The position numbers and the translations under genes are program-made. Source: a virus. Taken from it: a DNA stretch of 38,713 nt. Where the stretch lies: the IMG/VR virus record IMGVR_UViG_3300042301_000778, positions 1 through 38,713 of that record; one strand, written 5' to 3'. The notes under the pieces were generated by a model. It was not told the origin of the DNA. It worked only from the letters and a program-made list of their open reading frames with translations, and searched no databases. Below are positions 2,631-35,839 of this stretch, piece by piece (within the stretch, counting starts at the first letter, position 1; every line of letters begins with the position of its first letter).

Positions 2631-2858
2631 ATGCCTGATATATCATTATGTAAAAACGAACAATGTCCTTCAAAAGAATTATGTTTTAGGTTTACGTCAA
2701 AGCCGAGTGAGTTTAGACAATCTTATACAGGATTTACAATTGAAAGTGACGAAACGAGTTGCAGTTATTTTATGCCGAATGGGAAGTGTAAACATTGCAA
2801 AAAAACTAATTGCCATAAAATGAGTTGTCCAACACAAAAAATACAAATAAATTTGTAG
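2631..2858 (+). CDS. small cysteine-rich, probably zinc-binding protein
   Basis: The product is 75 residues with nine cysteines: CKNEQCPSKELC near the N-terminus and CKHCKKTNCHKMSC near the C-terminus, the pattern of a double zinc knuckle. A clear paralogue lies at 13974-14204 with the same frame of motifs (CPSKE-C-RFT, PNGKC--C, HKMSC, KIQ-NL). The role is unknown. The stop at 2858 is followed by a promoter and the first structured leader RNA. Confidence 0.75.
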   Translation: MPDISLCKNEQCPSKELCFRFTSKPSEFRQSYTGFTIESDETSCSYFMPNGKCKHCKKTNCHKMSCPTQKIQINL

Positions 2859-2884
2859 ATATTAAAAAAATAATTTTATATTTG
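2852..2884 (+). promoter_or_regulatory. Bacteroidota-type promoter (TTTG-N21-TATATTTG)
   Basis: TTTG at 2852-2855 and TATATTTG at 2877-2884 match the -33 and TAnnTTTG -7 elements of the Bacteroidota housekeeping sigma factor, with 21 bases between. Transcription would start around 2889-2892, just before the first hairpin of the leader RNA. Confidence 0.7.
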
Positions 2885-2893
2885 CATAAATAA

Positions 2894-2985
2894 AAAGTTC
2901 GGTCAGGAACTTTAACGAAATTAATAACGCCTCTTTTAATGCTTAATTCTGACCGATTAAGTTTTTTAAAAGAGGTTTATTTTTT
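2894..2985 (+). ncRNA. structured leader / small RNA with complementary loops, element 1
   Basis: Hairpin 1 pairs AAAGTTC (2894-2900) with GAACTTT (2907-2913) around the loop GGTCAG. Hairpin 2 pairs CTTAAT (2942-2947) with ATTAAG (2956-2961) around TCTGACCG, which contains CTGACC, the exact complement of loop 1. Hairpin 2 sits inside a 10-bp stem, CCTCTTTTAA (2930-2939) with TTAAAAGAGG (2966-2975), followed by a T-rich run, so the 3' part looks like an intrinsic terminator. The loops can form a kissing contact that interleaves with the terminator stem. The gene start at 2992 comes right after. Elements at 3988 and 5654 repeat the design with different stem sequences. Confidence 0.65.
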
Positions 2986-2991
2986 AAAATT

Positions 2992-3429
2992 ATGAGTAAA
3001 GATTTATTTCAATTAATGCGTCAACAGGAAATAGAAACGCAAAATTTCTTACCTAACAAAAAAGAAATTCAATTTAGTAGTAAAAAATTCATTACTGATT
3101 TATTAGAAGCTGGAGAAGTTAATAAATACGAATTATTAGCACAAGCCAAAAGAATGGTTGAAGCTTTAGATGTTATTAATTCAGAATTAATGAAAGTAAT
3201 ACCACAAGAAAACTTTGAAGAGTTTGGATTGAAAGGAACATTTAGAAGCGGAGGCGATACAATAAACTATTCAGATGATGCGATTTACACGCAATTAAAA
3301 GCTGACTTAGATGCAAGGGCGGAATTATTAAAACTTGCTCTTAAACAAGACGTAATTGATGCTTATGGTAACGATGTGCCTAAAGTTTCAACAACACCGA
3401 GAAAGTCGAGTTTGGCTATATCGTTTTAA
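2992..3429 (+). CDS. hypothetical protein upstream of the ERF annealing protein (145 aa)
   Basis: This helical, charged protein begins MSKDLFQLMRQQEIE and has a glycine-rich turn (GTFRSGGDTINYSD) before a C-terminal helix and a polar tail ending LAISF. No membrane span is visible. It is the first gene after the structured leader RNA and lies directly upstream of ERF, so a recombination-associated role is possible by context only. I do not recognise the family with confidence. Confidence 0.7.
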   Translation: MSKDLFQLMRQQEIETQNFLPNKKEIQFSSKKFITDLLEAGEVNKYELLAQAKRMVEALDVINSELMKVIPQENFEEFGLKGTFRSGGDTINYSDDAIYTQLKADLDARAELLKLALKQDVIDAYGNDVPKVSTTPRKSSLAISF

Positions 3430-3472
3430 TTTATTATATTTACAAATCTTAAACAATTAAATATCTTATCTT

Positions 3473-3970
3473 ATGAAACAAATTGCAACCGCTTTATTAA
3501 AAGCACAAACAGAAATGAGCAATCCAAAAAAAGGCTCAACAAATCCATTCTTTAAGTCAAAATATGCTGATTTAAACTCAATTCGAGAAGCAGTTATTCC
3601 AATTCTTAACGCCAACGGAATAAGCGTATTACAACCAATAGTTCACGTAGATAATAAAAACTTTGTTAAAACTATTTTACTTCACGAATCAGGCGAGTTA
3701 ATGGAATCATTAACAGAAATTATCTACAACAAAGTAAATGATGCACAAGCTCAAGGAAGCGGAATAAGTTATGCACGTAGATATTCTTTACAATCATTTG
3801 TTTGCGTTGGAGCAGATGATGACGATGGACAAAAAGCAGTGCAACCAAAACCAAATGCAACTACTGAAATTTTAATTAAAGCAAAACAAGGTGGCTTTAC
3901 ATTGGATCAAATTAAAACTAAATACACAACTACAAAAGAAATGGAAGATTATTTTAATAATTTAAAATAA
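3473..3970 (+). CDS. erf: ERF-family single-strand annealing protein (copy 1)
   Basis: ERF proteins bind single-stranded DNA and anneal complementary strands in phage recombination. The 165 residues show the family pattern: AQTEMSNPKKGSTNPFFKSKYADLN near the start, a central beta section (GISVLQP), and the signature GSGISYARRYSLQSFVCVGADDDDGQ around residues 97-122. It ends in a short helical tail. TATATTTA-like promoter sequence lies in the 43-base gap before it. An SSB-like gene and a ninB gene follow, forming a recombination cassette. A second ERF gene (36558-37133) lies at the other end of the window; having two is unusual. Confidence 0.85.
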   Translation: MKQIATALLKAQTEMSNPKKGSTNPFFKSKYADLNSIREAVIPILNANGISVLQPIVHVDNKNFVKTILLHESGELMESLTEIIYNKVNDAQAQGSGISYARRYSLQSFVCVGADDDDGQKAVQPKPNATTEILIKAKQGGFTLDQIKTKYTTTKEMEDYFNNLK

Positions 3971-3987
3971 TTTTGTATATTTACAAT

Positions 3988-4049
3988 TCGCTACAATAAA
4001 GTTTAATTTAAAACCCTCTTTTGTTTGTAGCGAGCATTAGAGGGTTTTT
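3988..4049 (+). ncRNA. structured leader RNA, interleaved pairing, element 2
   Basis: Segment A TCGCTACAA (3988-3996) pairs with TTGTAGCGA (4025-4033). Segment B AAAACCCTCT (4010-4019) pairs with AGAGGGTTTT (4039-4048). The order A-B-A'-B' defines an H-type pseudoknot, and B' ends in a T-run. TATATTTA at 3976-3983 could be its promoter. The ATG of the HNH gene is seven bases after the element. Unlike elements 1 and 3, no convincing hairpin encloses segment A, only a weak TTTA/TAAA. Confidence 0.6.
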
Positions 4050-4055
4050 AGTATT

Positions 4056-4544
4056 ATGGAAGTTTGGAAAACAATACCTAATTATCAAGATTATGAAGTT
4101 AGTAATTTTGGAAATGTAAAAAGTAAAAAATTTAACAAAGAAAAGATTTTAAAACCACAAATTAACAATGCTGGTTATTATAATGTTATTTTATCAAAAG
4201 AAAAAAAGATAAAAAACATTGCAATACATCAACTTGTTGCTATGTCTTTTTTAAATCATTTACCAAATGGTAAAAAAATAATTGTGGATCATATAGATAA
4301 TAACAAGTTAAATAATAATTTATATAATCTACAATTAGTATCATTTAGATATAATATATCAAAATCAAAATCAGGAACTTCAAAATATACCGGAGTTAGT
4401 TGGAATAAGAAAAATAAAAAATGGATGGCGCAAATTCAGTTTAACTCTATTAATAAAAATTTAGGTTATTTTGAAAATGAATATGATGCTTATTTAGTTT
4501 ATGAAAAAGAATTACAAAAAACAGCGGAGCCGAAAACTGAATAG
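4056..4544 (+). CDS. HNH homing endonuclease with NUMOD4 and AP2-like domains
   Basis: This 162-residue protein has three modules: NUMOD4 at residues 1-30 (EVWKTIPNYQDYEVSNFGNVKS), an HNH nuclease core around 65-100 (HQLVAMSFLNH, VDHIDNNKLNNN, NLQLVS), and an AP2-type DNA-binding domain around 107-152 (SKYTGVSWNKKNKKW, LGYFENEYDAY). It is a free-standing homing endonuclease that would cut a related genome to spread itself. It sits between ERF and the SSB-like gene. The second module at 36.5-37.5 kb lacks it. Its last codons run through a sequence that is intergenic in that second module, so the gene appears inserted there. Confidence 0.85.
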   Translation: MEVWKTIPNYQDYEVSNFGNVKSKKFNKEKILKPQINNAGYYNVILSKEKKIKNIAIHQLVAMSFLNHLPNGKKIIVDHIDNNKLNNNLYNLQLVSFRYNISKSKSGTSKYTGVSWNKKNKKWMAQIQFNSINKNLGYFENEYDAYLVYEKELQKTAEPKTE

Positions 4545-4554
4545 AGTAGGCAAA
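4526..4554 (+). repeat. conserved ERF-SSB junction element, copy 1
   Basis: The block GGAGCCGAAAACT-GA-ATAGAGTAGGCAAA matches 37134-37163 (GGAAGCTGAAAACT-AT-ATAGAGTAAGCAAA) with only a few changes and one gap. In copy 2 it lies between the ERF stop and the SSB start. Here it overlaps the 3' end of the HNH gene. Conservation without coding suggests a regulatory or recombination site; the function is unknown. Confidence 0.6.
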
Positions 4555-4576
4555 ATTATATAAATATCTTAAAATT

Positions 4577-4870
4577 ATGGGAGTTAAAACTTCATTTTAC
4601 GGAAGCATTGATTTTAGCAAATTGTTAGAACAAGCGAAAACAGGTAATAAAGCATTTACCAAAAATGAGAATGGAAAAATTTATTTAAACGTTAGAGTTT
4701 GGGTAAATGATGAATTGGATAAATACGGAAACGTAGCATCGTTTCAATCTAATTTCAAAGGCGCACAAAAAGAGGATAAATTCTATTTTGGTAATCTAAA
4801 AGAAAGTGAGCAAATTGTTGAAGAAGTAACTGCTCAAGATATACCAGATACAGATTCGCTACCTTTCTAA
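4577..4870 (+). CDS. SSB-like single-stranded DNA-binding protein (copy 1)
   Basis: The 97-residue product has a short beta-rich body (KIYLNVRVWVNDELDKYGNVASFQSNF) and an acidic C-terminal tip ending DIPDTDSLPF, the hallmark of SSB proteins, which use a D-x-L/I-P-F tail to recruit partners. Placement after ERF and before NinB supports a role in recombination and replication. It is shorter than bacterial SSB. The product at 37181-37477 shares the layout and an ESDLPF tail. Confidence 0.65.
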   Translation: MGVKTSFYGSIDFSKLLEQAKTGNKAFTKNENGKIYLNVRVWVNDELDKYGNVASFQSNFKGAQKEDKFYFGNLKESEQIVEEVTAQDIPDTDSLPF

Positions 4871-4873
4871 ATT

Positions 4874-5314
4874 ATGAAAATTGAAATTACAACGTCAATC
4901 GTTAACGGAATATTTAAACGAAACAGAAACCTTGTTTTAAACGCCATAAAATCGTTTAATGATAAAGACGTTGTAATTACTTTTTCAAAGCCTAAAAAGA
5001 ATCGTTCTAACAATCAAAACCGATATTATTGGGGATTGGTTTTACCTTTGATTCAAAATGGTTTATTAGATGCAACAGGAGAGTTAAGAAGTTATGATAA
5101 CATTCATTATAAAATACTTTTACCTTTATTTGCACCAACTAATGAAATAGTAAATAAAGAAACAGGAGAATGTATAGTTGAGCGTTTAACAAGTTCAGAT
5201 TTAACAACAACACAATTTTGCGAATATATTTTAGAAATACAAAAATGGGCAGCAGAATTTTTAGGAATAGATATTCCATCACCTAATGAAGAAAATTTAA
5301 TAAATTTTGATTAA
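4874..5314 (+). CDS. ninB: NinB-family recombination protein
   Basis: The 146-residue product carries the NinB (lambda Orf-like) core: an N-terminal strand-helix unit, the signature KKNRSNNQNRYYWGLVLP at about residues 40-57, and a C-terminal LTSSDLTTTQFCEYILEIQKWAAEFLGIDIPSP segment. Lambda Orf mediates loading of recombinases on SSB-coated DNA. It follows the SSB-like gene by three bases, so the pair is probably co-translated. Confidence 0.85.
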   Translation: MKIEITTSIVNGIFKRNRNLVLNAIKSFNDKDVVITFSKPKKNRSNNQNRYYWGLVLPLIQNGLLDATGELRSYDNIHYKILLPLFAPTNEIVNKETGECIVERLTSSDLTTTQFCEYILEIQKWAAEFLGIDIPSPNEENLINFD

Positions 5315-5602
5315 ATGAAAAATCACAAATTAGCAATAGAACTTATTGCAACAGATATTTTAAACCAAAATTCAGAAGCTGTTGGTAATGAAAATAAACC
5401 GAATTATAGTAATAGAGATTTTATGAATTGTGTTATTATATTTCAAAATGCTTTAATGGATAAAATGTATGATAATCAAGATTATGATAAAATGAGTTTA
5501 GAAGATAGAATGAATATGACTATTAAGTGTGGAGAGGATTTACGAAAACTAATTTTCACTTATACAAATTTAGATACTCATAAAGTAGAAGAATTTTTAT
5601 AA
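5315..5602 (+). CDS. hypothetical protein (95 aa) after NinB
   Basis: The ATG follows immediately on the ninB stop, with no gap. The product is helical and acidic, with a motif rich in asparagine and methionine (NYSNRDFMNCVIIFQNALMDKMYDNQDYDKMS) and no membrane segment. Not recognised. It is the last gene of the ERF cassette before a 186-base gap that holds a promoter and element 3. Confidence 0.65.
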   Translation: MKNHKLAIELIATDILNQNSEAVGNENKPNYSNRDFMNCVIIFQNALMDKMYDNQDYDKMSLEDRMNMTIKCGEDLRKLIFTYTNLDTHKVEEFL

Positions 5603-5641
5603 AAATTTTGATTAAAATGTTTTTTATATTGAAATAATTAT

Positions 5642-5649
5642 TATATTTG
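5642..5649 (+). promoter_or_regulatory. TAnnTTTG promoter element (TATATTTG)
   Basis: TATATTTG lies just ahead of hairpin 1 of element 3, the same arrangement as at 2877. No well-placed TTTG -33 element is visible, so the match rests on the -7 element only. Confidence 0.5.
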
Positions 5650-5653
5650 CAAA

Positions 5654-5754
5654 TGTAATTTAGTGAGATTTATTACAGACATAAAGAAATTATAAAAATC
5701 CTATTAGGAAAGCGAAATCTCACAATACGCTGACTTAATAGGATTTTCACTTTT
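5654..5754 (+). ncRNA. structured leader / small RNA with complementary loops, element 3
   Basis: Hairpin 1 pairs TGTAAT (5654-5659) with ATTACA (5672-5677); its loop holds GTGAGATTT. Hairpin 2 pairs AGCG (5711-5714) with CGCT (5728-5731); its loop holds AAATCTCAC, the exact 9-base complement. A 12-bp outer stem, AAAATCCTATTA (5695-5706) with TAATAGGATTTT (5736-5747), encloses hairpin 2 and is followed by T-rich sequence. The topology is that of element 1, while every stem differs in sequence. The next ATG is at 5789, after a small hairpin-prone AGGT/ACCT spacer. Confidence 0.65.
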
Positions 5755-5788
5755 AATAGTTTATAGGTATCTTAAAACCTTTATTATT

Positions 5789-6010
5789 ATGGCAAAATTT
5801 GAATTAAGATTTATTGATTGTTTTAACGAAACTGATTTTATTAAAACAGAAGCACAAGAATTACATAGTAAAGATATTATTGAAATTTATGGTAAATGTG
5901 GTTATGATATTTTTAGTGTTTATTTAGACAAATCAACTGCAATTAAATTCGCTAAAACACTTCGTACTGAAATTAACAAAATAACAGAAAGCGAGGTTAA
6001 CAATGGCTAA
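5789..6010 (+). CDS. hypothetical protein (73 aa) behind element 3
   Basis: This small alpha/beta protein begins MAKFELRFIDCFNETDF and ends in a helix (AIKFAKTLRTEINKITESE). It overlaps the replisome-organizer gene by eight bases, so it is probably translated with it. No family recognised. Confidence 0.65.
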   Translation: MAKFELRFIDCFNETDFIKTEAQELHSKDIIEIYGKCGYDIFSVYLDKSTAIKFAKTLRTEINKITESEVNNG

Positions 6011-7123: not shown

Positions 7124-7757
7124 AAAATACAAAGTTTTAAATTTATACGCTTGTTTAGGTGGTAATAGATACAAATGGAATGATTGTGAAGTTACAGCAG
7201 TTGAACTTGACACTGAAGCTGCAAGATTATATAAAGAAAGATTTCCTAATGATATTGTTATAGTTGCTGATGCACACCAATATTTATTAGACAATTACAA
7301 AGAATTTGATTTTATTTGGAGTTCACCGCCTTGCCCAAGCCATTCGAGAGCAAGATTTGCAAGAAAAAGTACAACAAGTGCAATTTATCCAGATTTAAAA
7401 TTATATGAAGAAATATTATTTTTAGAAAATTGGTATGAAGGAAAATATTGTGTTGAAAATGTAATACCTTACTATGAACCATTAATACCAGCTCAAAAAA
7501 GGGGAAGGCATTTATATTGGACTAATTTTAATTTGCCTAATGATTTAAATGAAAGAAAAGCAAGTATAATGGAAAGTAAAGATGAAGTTTCACAATGGTG
7601 TAAATTTCACGATTATGATTTTAGAAAATATAAAGGAAAACAATCAGTTCAAAAAATGGCAAGGAATTTAGTAGACTATGAAGCTGGATTAACTATATTT
7701 AATGTAGCAAGAGGAATATATGAAAAACCAAAAACAAATCAATTAGAATTATTATGA
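7113..7757 (+). CDS. C5-cytosine DNA methyltransferase (complete copy)
   Basis: The 214-residue protein carries short forms of the C5-methyltransferase motifs: LNLYACLGGN at residues 8-17 (motif I, SAM binding), SSPPCPSHSRAR around 70-81 (motif IV; the catalytic cysteine is in PPC, with P where Q is usual), VENV around 113-116 (motif VI) and QKRGRHLYW (motif VIII). It is small for the family, so the target-recognition region must be minimal. No restriction enzyme is adjacent, fitting a solitary phage methylase that shields DNA from host restriction. A second copy, cut by the right edge, begins at 38377; 127 bases are identical. Confidence 0.8.
   Translation: MENKKYKVLNLYACLGGNRYKWNDCEVTAVELDTEAARLYKERFPNDIVIVADAHQYLLDNYKEFDFIWSSPPCPSHSRARFARKSTTSAIYPDLKLYEEILFLENWYEGKYCVENVIPYYEPLIPAQKRGRHLYWTNFNLPNDLNERKASIMESKDEVSQWCKFHDYDFRKYKGKQSVQKMARNLVDYEAGLTIFNVARGIYEKPKTNQLELL
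7329..7455 (+). repeat. 127-bp exact repeat, copy 1 (inside methyltransferase gene)
   Basis: Bases 7329-7455 are identical to the last 127 bases of the window (38587-38713). Immediately upstream the two copies diverge: about 14 differences over the preceding ~200 bases. The match runs exactly to the window end, as expected of a contig that stops in a repeat. Confidence 0.9.
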
Positions 7758-35129: not shown

Positions 35130-35595
35130 TATTATATTTTTATCTTGTGGTTCAAGAAAAGTTAATAAAACAACAATAGAAGAAAAAAAAGATAGTGTTT
35201 CAGTTGTTGATGTAAAAACAGAAATAAAAACAAATGAAAATACTGAAATAAATAACAATTCTAAAATAGATAAAACAGAAGATGAATTTATAATTGAACC
35301 AATAGACAACACAAAAGAAATAGTTGTAAATGGTAAAACTTATAAAAACGTTAAAATAAGACACAAAAAAACAAAAGACAATAGTTTACATATAAATCAA
35401 AAGAAAGTGTCTAAAAACGCTTTAAAACAACAAATAAAGCATAGTAAGCAAGTTGTTTCTACTTCAAAAGTATTAAAAGAAAAGAAAATAGAAAAAAAAG
35501 AAAGTTTAGTTATATATTTTTATTTATTTATATTATTAATTTTATTATATTTGATTTATAGATATAGATTTAATATTTTAAAATTATTTATTTAA
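35101..35595 (+). CDS. single-gene spanin (u-spanin-like lipoprotein)
   Basis: The N-terminus MKKLIYILVSIIFLSCGS is a lipoprotein signal with the lipobox cysteine at residue 16. The middle is long, charged and partly coiled, and the C-terminus (SLVIYFYLFILLILLYLIYRYR, about 134-155) is a strong membrane helix. A lipid anchor in the outer membrane plus an inner-membrane anchor in one chain is the u-spanin design of phage T1. It would fuse or disrupt the outer membrane after murein is cut. Start placement is fixed by the signal peptide and overlaps the endolysin. Confidence 0.8.
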   Translation: MKKLIYILVSIIFLSCGSRKVNKTTIEEKKDSVSVVDVKTEIKTNENTEINNNSKIDKTEDEFIIEPIDNTKEIVVNGKTYKNVKIRHKKTKDNSLHINQKKVSKNALKQQIKHSKQVVSTSKVLKEKKIEKKESLVIYFYLFILLILLYLIYRYRFNILKLFI

Positions 35596-35839
35596 TATAT
35601 TATATATTTATTATTATATTTATTAATATATATATTATATTATCTTTGAATTAAATAAATTAATATATATTAAATTATAATTATCTTGAATTAAATAAGT
35701 TATTTATATTATATATATATATTATTAAGAAATTAAAAATAAATAAAATAAACGTTTTTAAAACACTATTTTTAGTCAAGTTATATAAGTATACTTAAAA
35801 TCAATTATCTTTGTTTAAATCATATTTAAAATACGTTAT
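35596..35839 (+). promoter_or_regulatory. very AT-rich 244-base gap with repeated TTATCTTTG boxes
   Basis: No gene is visible. The sequence is almost only A and T up to about 35750. TTATCTTTGAATTAAATAA at 35640-35658 recurs at 35681-35698 with one T missing, and TTATCTTTG appears again at 35805-35813, 27 bases before ninG. These match the TAnnTTTG promoter box, so two or three promoters may be stacked here. An origin is also possible. Confidence 0.5.

Follow-up and report, generated by a model that had tools for sequence, protein, structure and literature searches.

A class of RNA leaders in which the loop of a 5′ hairpin kisses the apical loop of a following terminator-like hairpin is represented three times in IMG/VR virus record IMGVR_UViG_3300042301_000778, a sequence of 38,713 nucleotides (nt) that is related to Flavobacterium phages and was analysed at its full length (the window). 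That this kissing-loop class exists is virtually certain. The first-pass annotation of the window, which had pointed to the three leaders (elements 1, 2 and 3), set the finding of further members in related phages as a check, and many were found, about 200 elements spread over related phage contigs and cultured Flavobacterium, Cellulophaga and Polaribacter phages. We read them, with a probability of roughly 0.55, as cis-acting phage leaders that attenuate replication, recombination and homing-endonuclease genes at transcription and probably also at initiation.

The annotation had described two inverted pairs in interleaved order, A-B-A′-B′, in each leader, and these are exact in all three. Pair A of element 1 is 8 bp long (TCGGTCAG/CTGACCGA) and not 6-7 bp as first given, while its B pair of 10 bp was correct, as were the 9 and 10 bp of element 2 and the 9 and 12 bp of element 3, where B reaches 14 bp if one G-U is counted. 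A shuffled control was also called for and was run with 2000 sequences per leader, dinucleotides being kept and the same minimum strength being demanded of two interleaved stems of at least 8 bp; such pairs appeared in 0 of 2000 shuffles for each of the three leaders. With the pseudoknot left out, the fold z-scores against shuffles were -5.2, -4.9 and -4.5 for elements 1, 2 and 3.

Two simple inverted pairs are real but incomplete as a description, since the unit consists of two hairpins with kissing loops, the second of them terminator-like. The architecture was derived from the three window elements and the roughly 200 relatives, and runs in the order -7 box TAnnTTTG, stem P1, A-rich linker, stem P2, small internal loop, stem P3, return strand of P2, U-tract and start codon. 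P1 has 4-10 bp and carries A, 6-10 nt long, in its loop; the linker has a median of 16 nt and a recurring AAARAYATTA-like motif; P2 is mostly 7-17 bp, and P3, with A′ in its loop, is about 3-7 bp and absent in 12 of 100 elements. Pair B makes up the lower portion of the longer hairpin P2-internal loop-P3 that holds A′ in its apical loop, and because of this the A-B-A′-B′ topology is predicted to be a loop-loop kiss between the 5′ hairpin and the terminator-like hairpin. The parts of the three leaders are as follows.

2877-2884, plus strand: -7 box TATATTTG of element 1, predicted +1 at about 2889 (sequence, TAnnTTTG spacing of PMC9723704)
2894-2913, plus strand: P1 hairpin of element 1, AAAGTTC/GAACTTT, with A = GGTCAG in the loop at 2901-2906 (pairing, covariation)
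2929-2976, plus strand: terminator-like stem P2 of element 1, 2929-2939/2966-2976 (pairing, covariation, fold)
within 2929-2976, plus strand: P3 of element 1, 2942-2947/2956-2961, with A′ CTGACC at 2949-2954 (pairing, covariation, fold)
2977-2985, plus strand: U-tract TTATTTTTT of element 1, ahead of the start codon at 2992 (sequence)
3968-3975, plus strand: likeliest -7 box of element 2, TAATTTTG (sequence, PMC9723704)
3980-4000, plus strand: weak P1 of element 2, TTTA/TAAA, whose loop contains A = TCGCTACAA at 3988-3996 (sequence)
4010-4048, plus strand: P2 of element 2, 4010-4019/4039-4048, with A′ TTGTAGCGA at 4025-4033 and a T-run to 4049 (pairing, fold)
5642-5649, plus strand: -7 box TATATTTG of element 3, predicted +1 at 5654 (PMC9723704)
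5654-5677, plus strand: P1 hairpin of element 3, TGTAAT/ATTACA, from the predicted +1, with loop A = GTGAGATTT at 5663-5671 (pairing, covariation)
5678-5694, plus strand: A-rich linker of element 3 with the subclass motif AAATTATA (consensus AAARAYATTATA)
5695-5747, plus strand: P2 of element 3, 5695-5708/5734-5747, with an AA/GA internal loop (pairing, alignment, covariance model)
within 5695-5747, plus strand: P3 of element 3, 5711-5714/5728-5731, with A′ AAATCTCAC at 5715-5723
5744-5755, plus strand: interrupted U-tract TTTTCACTTTTA of element 3, its first four bases paired in P2 (sequence)

Elements 1 and 3 have a strong P1 around A, and that of element 2 is weak, with only four A-U pairs (3980-3983/3997-4000).

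The natural covariation signal suggested by the annotation is borne out by compensatory changes in the classes of elements 3 and 1, including those in the helix between the P1 and P3 loops. Thirty element-3-class sequences of one subtype, all upstream of homologues of the gene at 5789 and aligned by sequence, had 95.6% standard pairs against 37-41% with the partners slid, which was above all of 500 shuffles; in the kissing helix 99.2% of cells were paired and 6 of the 8 pairs had changed on both sides. The 17 sequences of the element-1 class were 90.7% paired overall and 100% in the kissing helix, where 2 of the 6 pairs showed compensatory changes. The sequences were gathered partly with a structure finder, which inflates the percentage paired, a bias that is limited because the same kind of leader precedes 69 of 78 homologues of the 5789 gene in synteny, and several of the other nine resemble one by eye. 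A covariance model of the element-3 class, without the pseudoknot, recovered the copy in Polaribacter phage P12002S from outside its alignment (34.8 bits, E 0.0013), and weakly detected other subtypes at descriptor-found sites with E values of 0.04-0.4, amid similar-scoring background. There are 83 distinct A sequences among 100 non-redundant elements, and the predicted pairing is kept while almost every base has changed.

A scan of 856 kb, in which only P1, A-A′ and P2 were required so that promoter box and T-run were free of selection in its top matches, gave 70 forward matches at a score of at least 56, compared with 6 for the reverse strand and 1 for shuffled sequence. The pairs might have arisen by chance in AT-rich stretches between genes, and the window is indeed AT-rich with AT-only inverted repeats in it; the empty shuffles of each leader, the strand bias of the scan and the compensatory changes rule this out, and what probability it retains is negligible. 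A scan of the whole window agreed with the annotation that there are no such elements in the 7.4-38.7 kb part, as only the three scored above 45 with promoter and terminator features.

Just 5′ of 52 of the 61 unique top matches stands a -7 box (TAnnTTTG or TATATTTA), with P1 starting 2-12 nt later, against only 7 of 75 low-scoring and 2 of 37 reverse-strand matches. Likewise unselected, the 8 nt after P2 hold 5.3 T against a background of 2.7-2.8. The 100 non-redundant elements were chosen with box and T-run required, and the unbiased figures for these two features are those of the 61-match scan only. In the 100, the starts of P1 peak at 4 nt past the box. TAnnTTTG was mapped at -12 to -5 in Flavobacterium psychrophilum (PMC9723704), and if the box spans the same positions here, the peak of P1 starts falls at +1. 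A TTG lies 21-22 nt 5′ of the box in 31 of the 100 elements, about where the -33 promoter element described for Bacteroides would fall (PMC7366714). In the window, the predicted +1 positions place P1 at about +1 of a Bacteroidota-type promoter: it begins at the predicted +1 in elements 2 and 3 and at about +6 in element 1. The TATATTT(G/A) box that had been assigned to all three leaders holds for elements 1 and 3 in the form TATATTTG, but that of element 2 is more likely TAATTTTG than TATATTTA, and with this box its P1 begins exactly at the predicted +1, position 3980.

At the junction of P2 and P3 a strand AGTA faces GAA in 15 of 15 cases (11 with AGTA on the 5′ side, 4 on the 3′ side), where 3.5 would be expected from shuffled partners. 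The loop E (bulged-G) motif has this consensus and thus occurs here in either orientation, and 30 further internal loops are of tandem GA types. The internal loop is, by its sequence, an interchangeable three-dimensional module, and we infer that selection acts on a stiff coaxial shape because loop E and tandem-GA modules replace each other.

The regulatory part of the annotation's proposal, a new class of phage regulatory or decoy RNA, is well supported by position, because 194 of 197 elements lie at most 200 nt upstream of an open reading frame on the same strand; nothing was found in favour of a decoy role. What stood of the proposal is a real structured RNA class tied to promoters and gene starts, with no Rfam match. 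The start codon follows the leader within 60 nt in 91 of 97 cases, and the end of P2 is within 20 nt of it in 47 of 97. The downstream genes include the 73-aa gene found behind element 3, replication-like genes, the family of the gene at 2992, NUMOD4-HNH and GIY-YIG endonucleases, helicase-like genes, ERF and others, the names outside the window being our own reading of the sequences.

In the attenuation that we favour, a promoter of Bacteroidota sigma-A type would start transcription at or beside P1, with the second hairpin following after the linker of about 16 nt. P1 would fold as RNA polymerase clears the promoter, its loop would then catch the emerging A′, and the second hairpin would shut when the polymerase reaches the U-tract. 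Part of transcription would stop there and yield an RNA of about 75-100 nt, knotted and helical at either end, and the remainder would read through into the gene, where P2, if within 20 nt of the start codon as in about half of the cases, may also impede ribosome loading. The kiss would be the control joint that sets the firmness of the terminator or of the initiation block, and it may favour or oppose termination; an opener or competitor of the kiss could alter the expression of replication, recombination and endonuclease genes.

Several points weigh against attenuation. Only 23% of the hairpins pass a terminator score, which is calibrated on Escherichia coli, and termination may be weak, conditional or absent; it is on account of this low pass rate, which fits a conditional terminator or a non-terminator 5′ structure, that our probability is held where it is. 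No alternative pairing that sequesters a P2 strand, as in a classical antiterminator, was identified by inspection. A model of taut-linker strain, in which the kiss opposes closure of P2 and the linker should lengthen with the rod, was rejected, linker and rod length showing no correlation (Spearman -0.17, p 0.30).

The helical 5′ end bears on a different explanation, in which the leader protects the mRNA or modifies the polymerase in the manner of HK022 put, the knotted 5′ end blocking 5′-end-dependent decay and the U-tract not being a working terminator. P1 is mostly at or near +1, leaving few unpaired 5′ bases, and the 23% pass rate suits this explanation as well, but the U-tract is specific to the end of P2 in the unselected matches and would be needed by neither action, which makes the explanation improbable. 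The same two ends, a 5′ end paired from +1 and a U-tailed 3′ hairpin, are typical of stable small RNAs, and small RNAs with a transcription start site and a terminator are common in Bacteroides (PMC7366714). The short RNA might accordingly be the product itself, a stable trans-acting small RNA encoded in the leader and aimed at host RNA, protein or polymerase, with low read-through expressing the gene. We consider this unlikely, given that no conserved seed is exposed among the diverse A loops, whose bases are consumed by the kiss, and that a same-strand gene, unneeded for an independent small RNA, stands close behind nearly every copy.

The loops might also serve as a private code for autoregulation, the A and A′ loops of a terminated leader pairing in trans with nascent copies as a dosage sensor resembling plasmid antisense systems. 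By construction the loops of one copy complement those of any other copy of that leader, and 0 of 74 same-locus pairs share an A 5-mer against 6.1 expected from all elements, but permuting the labels inside each gene class removes the deficit (1.0 expected). Kissing codes that look selected for orthogonality within a genome when all elements are pooled thus no longer do so inside a gene class, and the dosage sensor is very improbable.

The leader apparently forms a class undescribed so far and widespread. At the curated gathering score Rfam 15 had 0 matches in the window, and in 12 related loci it matched only DUF805b RNA, outside the elements; with matches up to E = 1 admitted over 2850-5800, only a sub-threshold DUF805b appeared at 4521-4552. 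The open literature searched held no account of such RNAs in flavobacterial phages, preprints (bioRxiv) and most subscription papers being beyond the reach of that search. Flavo-1 RNA (RF01705) and DUF805b RNA (RF02914) are structured Bacteroidota RNAs as well, and neither model matches the elements. The leaders share with attenuators and other terminator-controlled leaders the order promoter, structured leader, U-tailed hairpin and gene, but a leader peptide, a ligand pocket or a pairing of the antiterminator kind was not identified in them, and the control joint would be a kiss with the terminator-like hairpin itself. HK022 put is a short two-hairpin phage RNA at early transcript starts that antiterminates in cis and has no terminator U-tract; the leaders are likewise short two-hairpin RNAs, yet their hairpin loops pair, their sequence is unconserved and a U-tract is present. 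Type III toxin-antitoxin systems (ToxI) also have promoter, pseudoknotted RNA, terminator and gene in this order, with a tandem repeated antitoxin and a ToxN-like gene. The leader is a single non-repeated unit, its downstream genes are not such toxins, and no toxin matches were found among the downstream genes in the window. Complementary bases in two hairpin loops are known from the purine riboswitch and from RNAI/RNAII; the leaders differ in having no conserved ligand core and a kiss in cis with a terminator-like hairpin, and the many distinct A loops and functionally differing downstream genes do not fit a riboswitch. More tentatively, with less than even confidence, the kiss between a 5′ hairpin and an intrinsic terminator loop might make a categorically new viral RNA switch, one recognised by shape while its bases vary and its internal loops are exchanged, which would serve flavobacterial phages as a portable read-through control for early genes and travel with homing endonuclease inserts.

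An RNA with nearly free bases escapes sequence-based family searches and was seen here through its pairing topology only. It appears to be common in phages of Flavobacterium and relatives, a group of hosts in whose phages little is known of gene regulation, and the kiss offers a defined and easily mutated target for learning how replication genes are controlled in these phages. With its loop E and tandem-GA modules exchanged naturally, and its kissing codes too, the class also supplies a large data set on interchangeable RNA three-dimensional parts.

Copies are present in Flavobacterium phages 11b and hemulen6-1, in Cellulophaga phage phi10:1 and in Polaribacter phage P12002S, and also in phages mumin6-1 and morran9-1 and in contigs that a DNA pattern retrieved without any gene as anchor. 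Those of mumin6-1 and hemulen6-1 include copies at about 5854-5929 and 6889-6986 in L002 and at about 13739 and 14773 in L085. None were seen in the first 50 kb of crAss001 or in B40-8. In host chromosomes, under a strict first filter and with no positive-control genome, neither covariance model R1 nor the protein of the element-3 gene found a match in 395 genomes of the phylum to which the genome of L090 belongs, a weak negative. The genes behind the three leaders in the window are the following.

2992-3429, plus strand: gene 3′ of element 1, 145 aa, with no PHROG or Pfam match
4056-4544, plus strand: NUMOD4-HNH homing endonuclease gene, part of an insert with element 2 (insert absent from relatives)
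5789-6010, plus strand: gene 3′ of element 3, 73 aa, PHROG 33177 (unknown function)

The leader is present at only 14 of 31 homologues of the 2992 gene, some others standing close behind another gene or having a plain promoter, and for this reason it is probably best regarded as a dispensable regulatory part. Element 2 probably arrived with the endonuclease insert: in relatives L004, L005, L008 and L011 the homologue of the gene at 4577 comes straight after ERF, and the leader, NUMOD4-HNH gene and DUF805b-like stretch that separate them in the window (3971-4576) are missing. The C-terminus of ERF differs too between the window and these four relatives. The sub-threshold DUF805b match at 4521-4552 (plus strand, 23.6 bits) overlaps the end of the HNH gene just ahead of the 4577 gene. 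DUF805b RNA lies directly 3′ of a kissing-loop leader in L024 (7402-7434) and L032 (4962-4994), and a further entry is at L001 5798-5832.

Between the U-tract of element 3 and the start codon there is a second short hairpin (5756-5788), which is also found before most homologues of the 5789 gene, including the leaderless ones in L175, L191 and L193. Its stem varies (GGTATCTTAAAACC, CCGTAGCTTAAAACGG, CAGTTTAGTAAAACTG) in a fairly constant frame of AGTTTA on the 5′ side and TTATTATTATGGC on the 3′ side. In L024 the leaders at 7305 and 8309 have A loops complementary over six bases (GCGTCTCAC, GTGAGATTT), and cross-kissing would be possible between them. Elsewhere in the window, a long AT-only stretch between two genes at 35546-35730 has many overlapping inverted repeats and is a possible origin or a low-complexity spacer.

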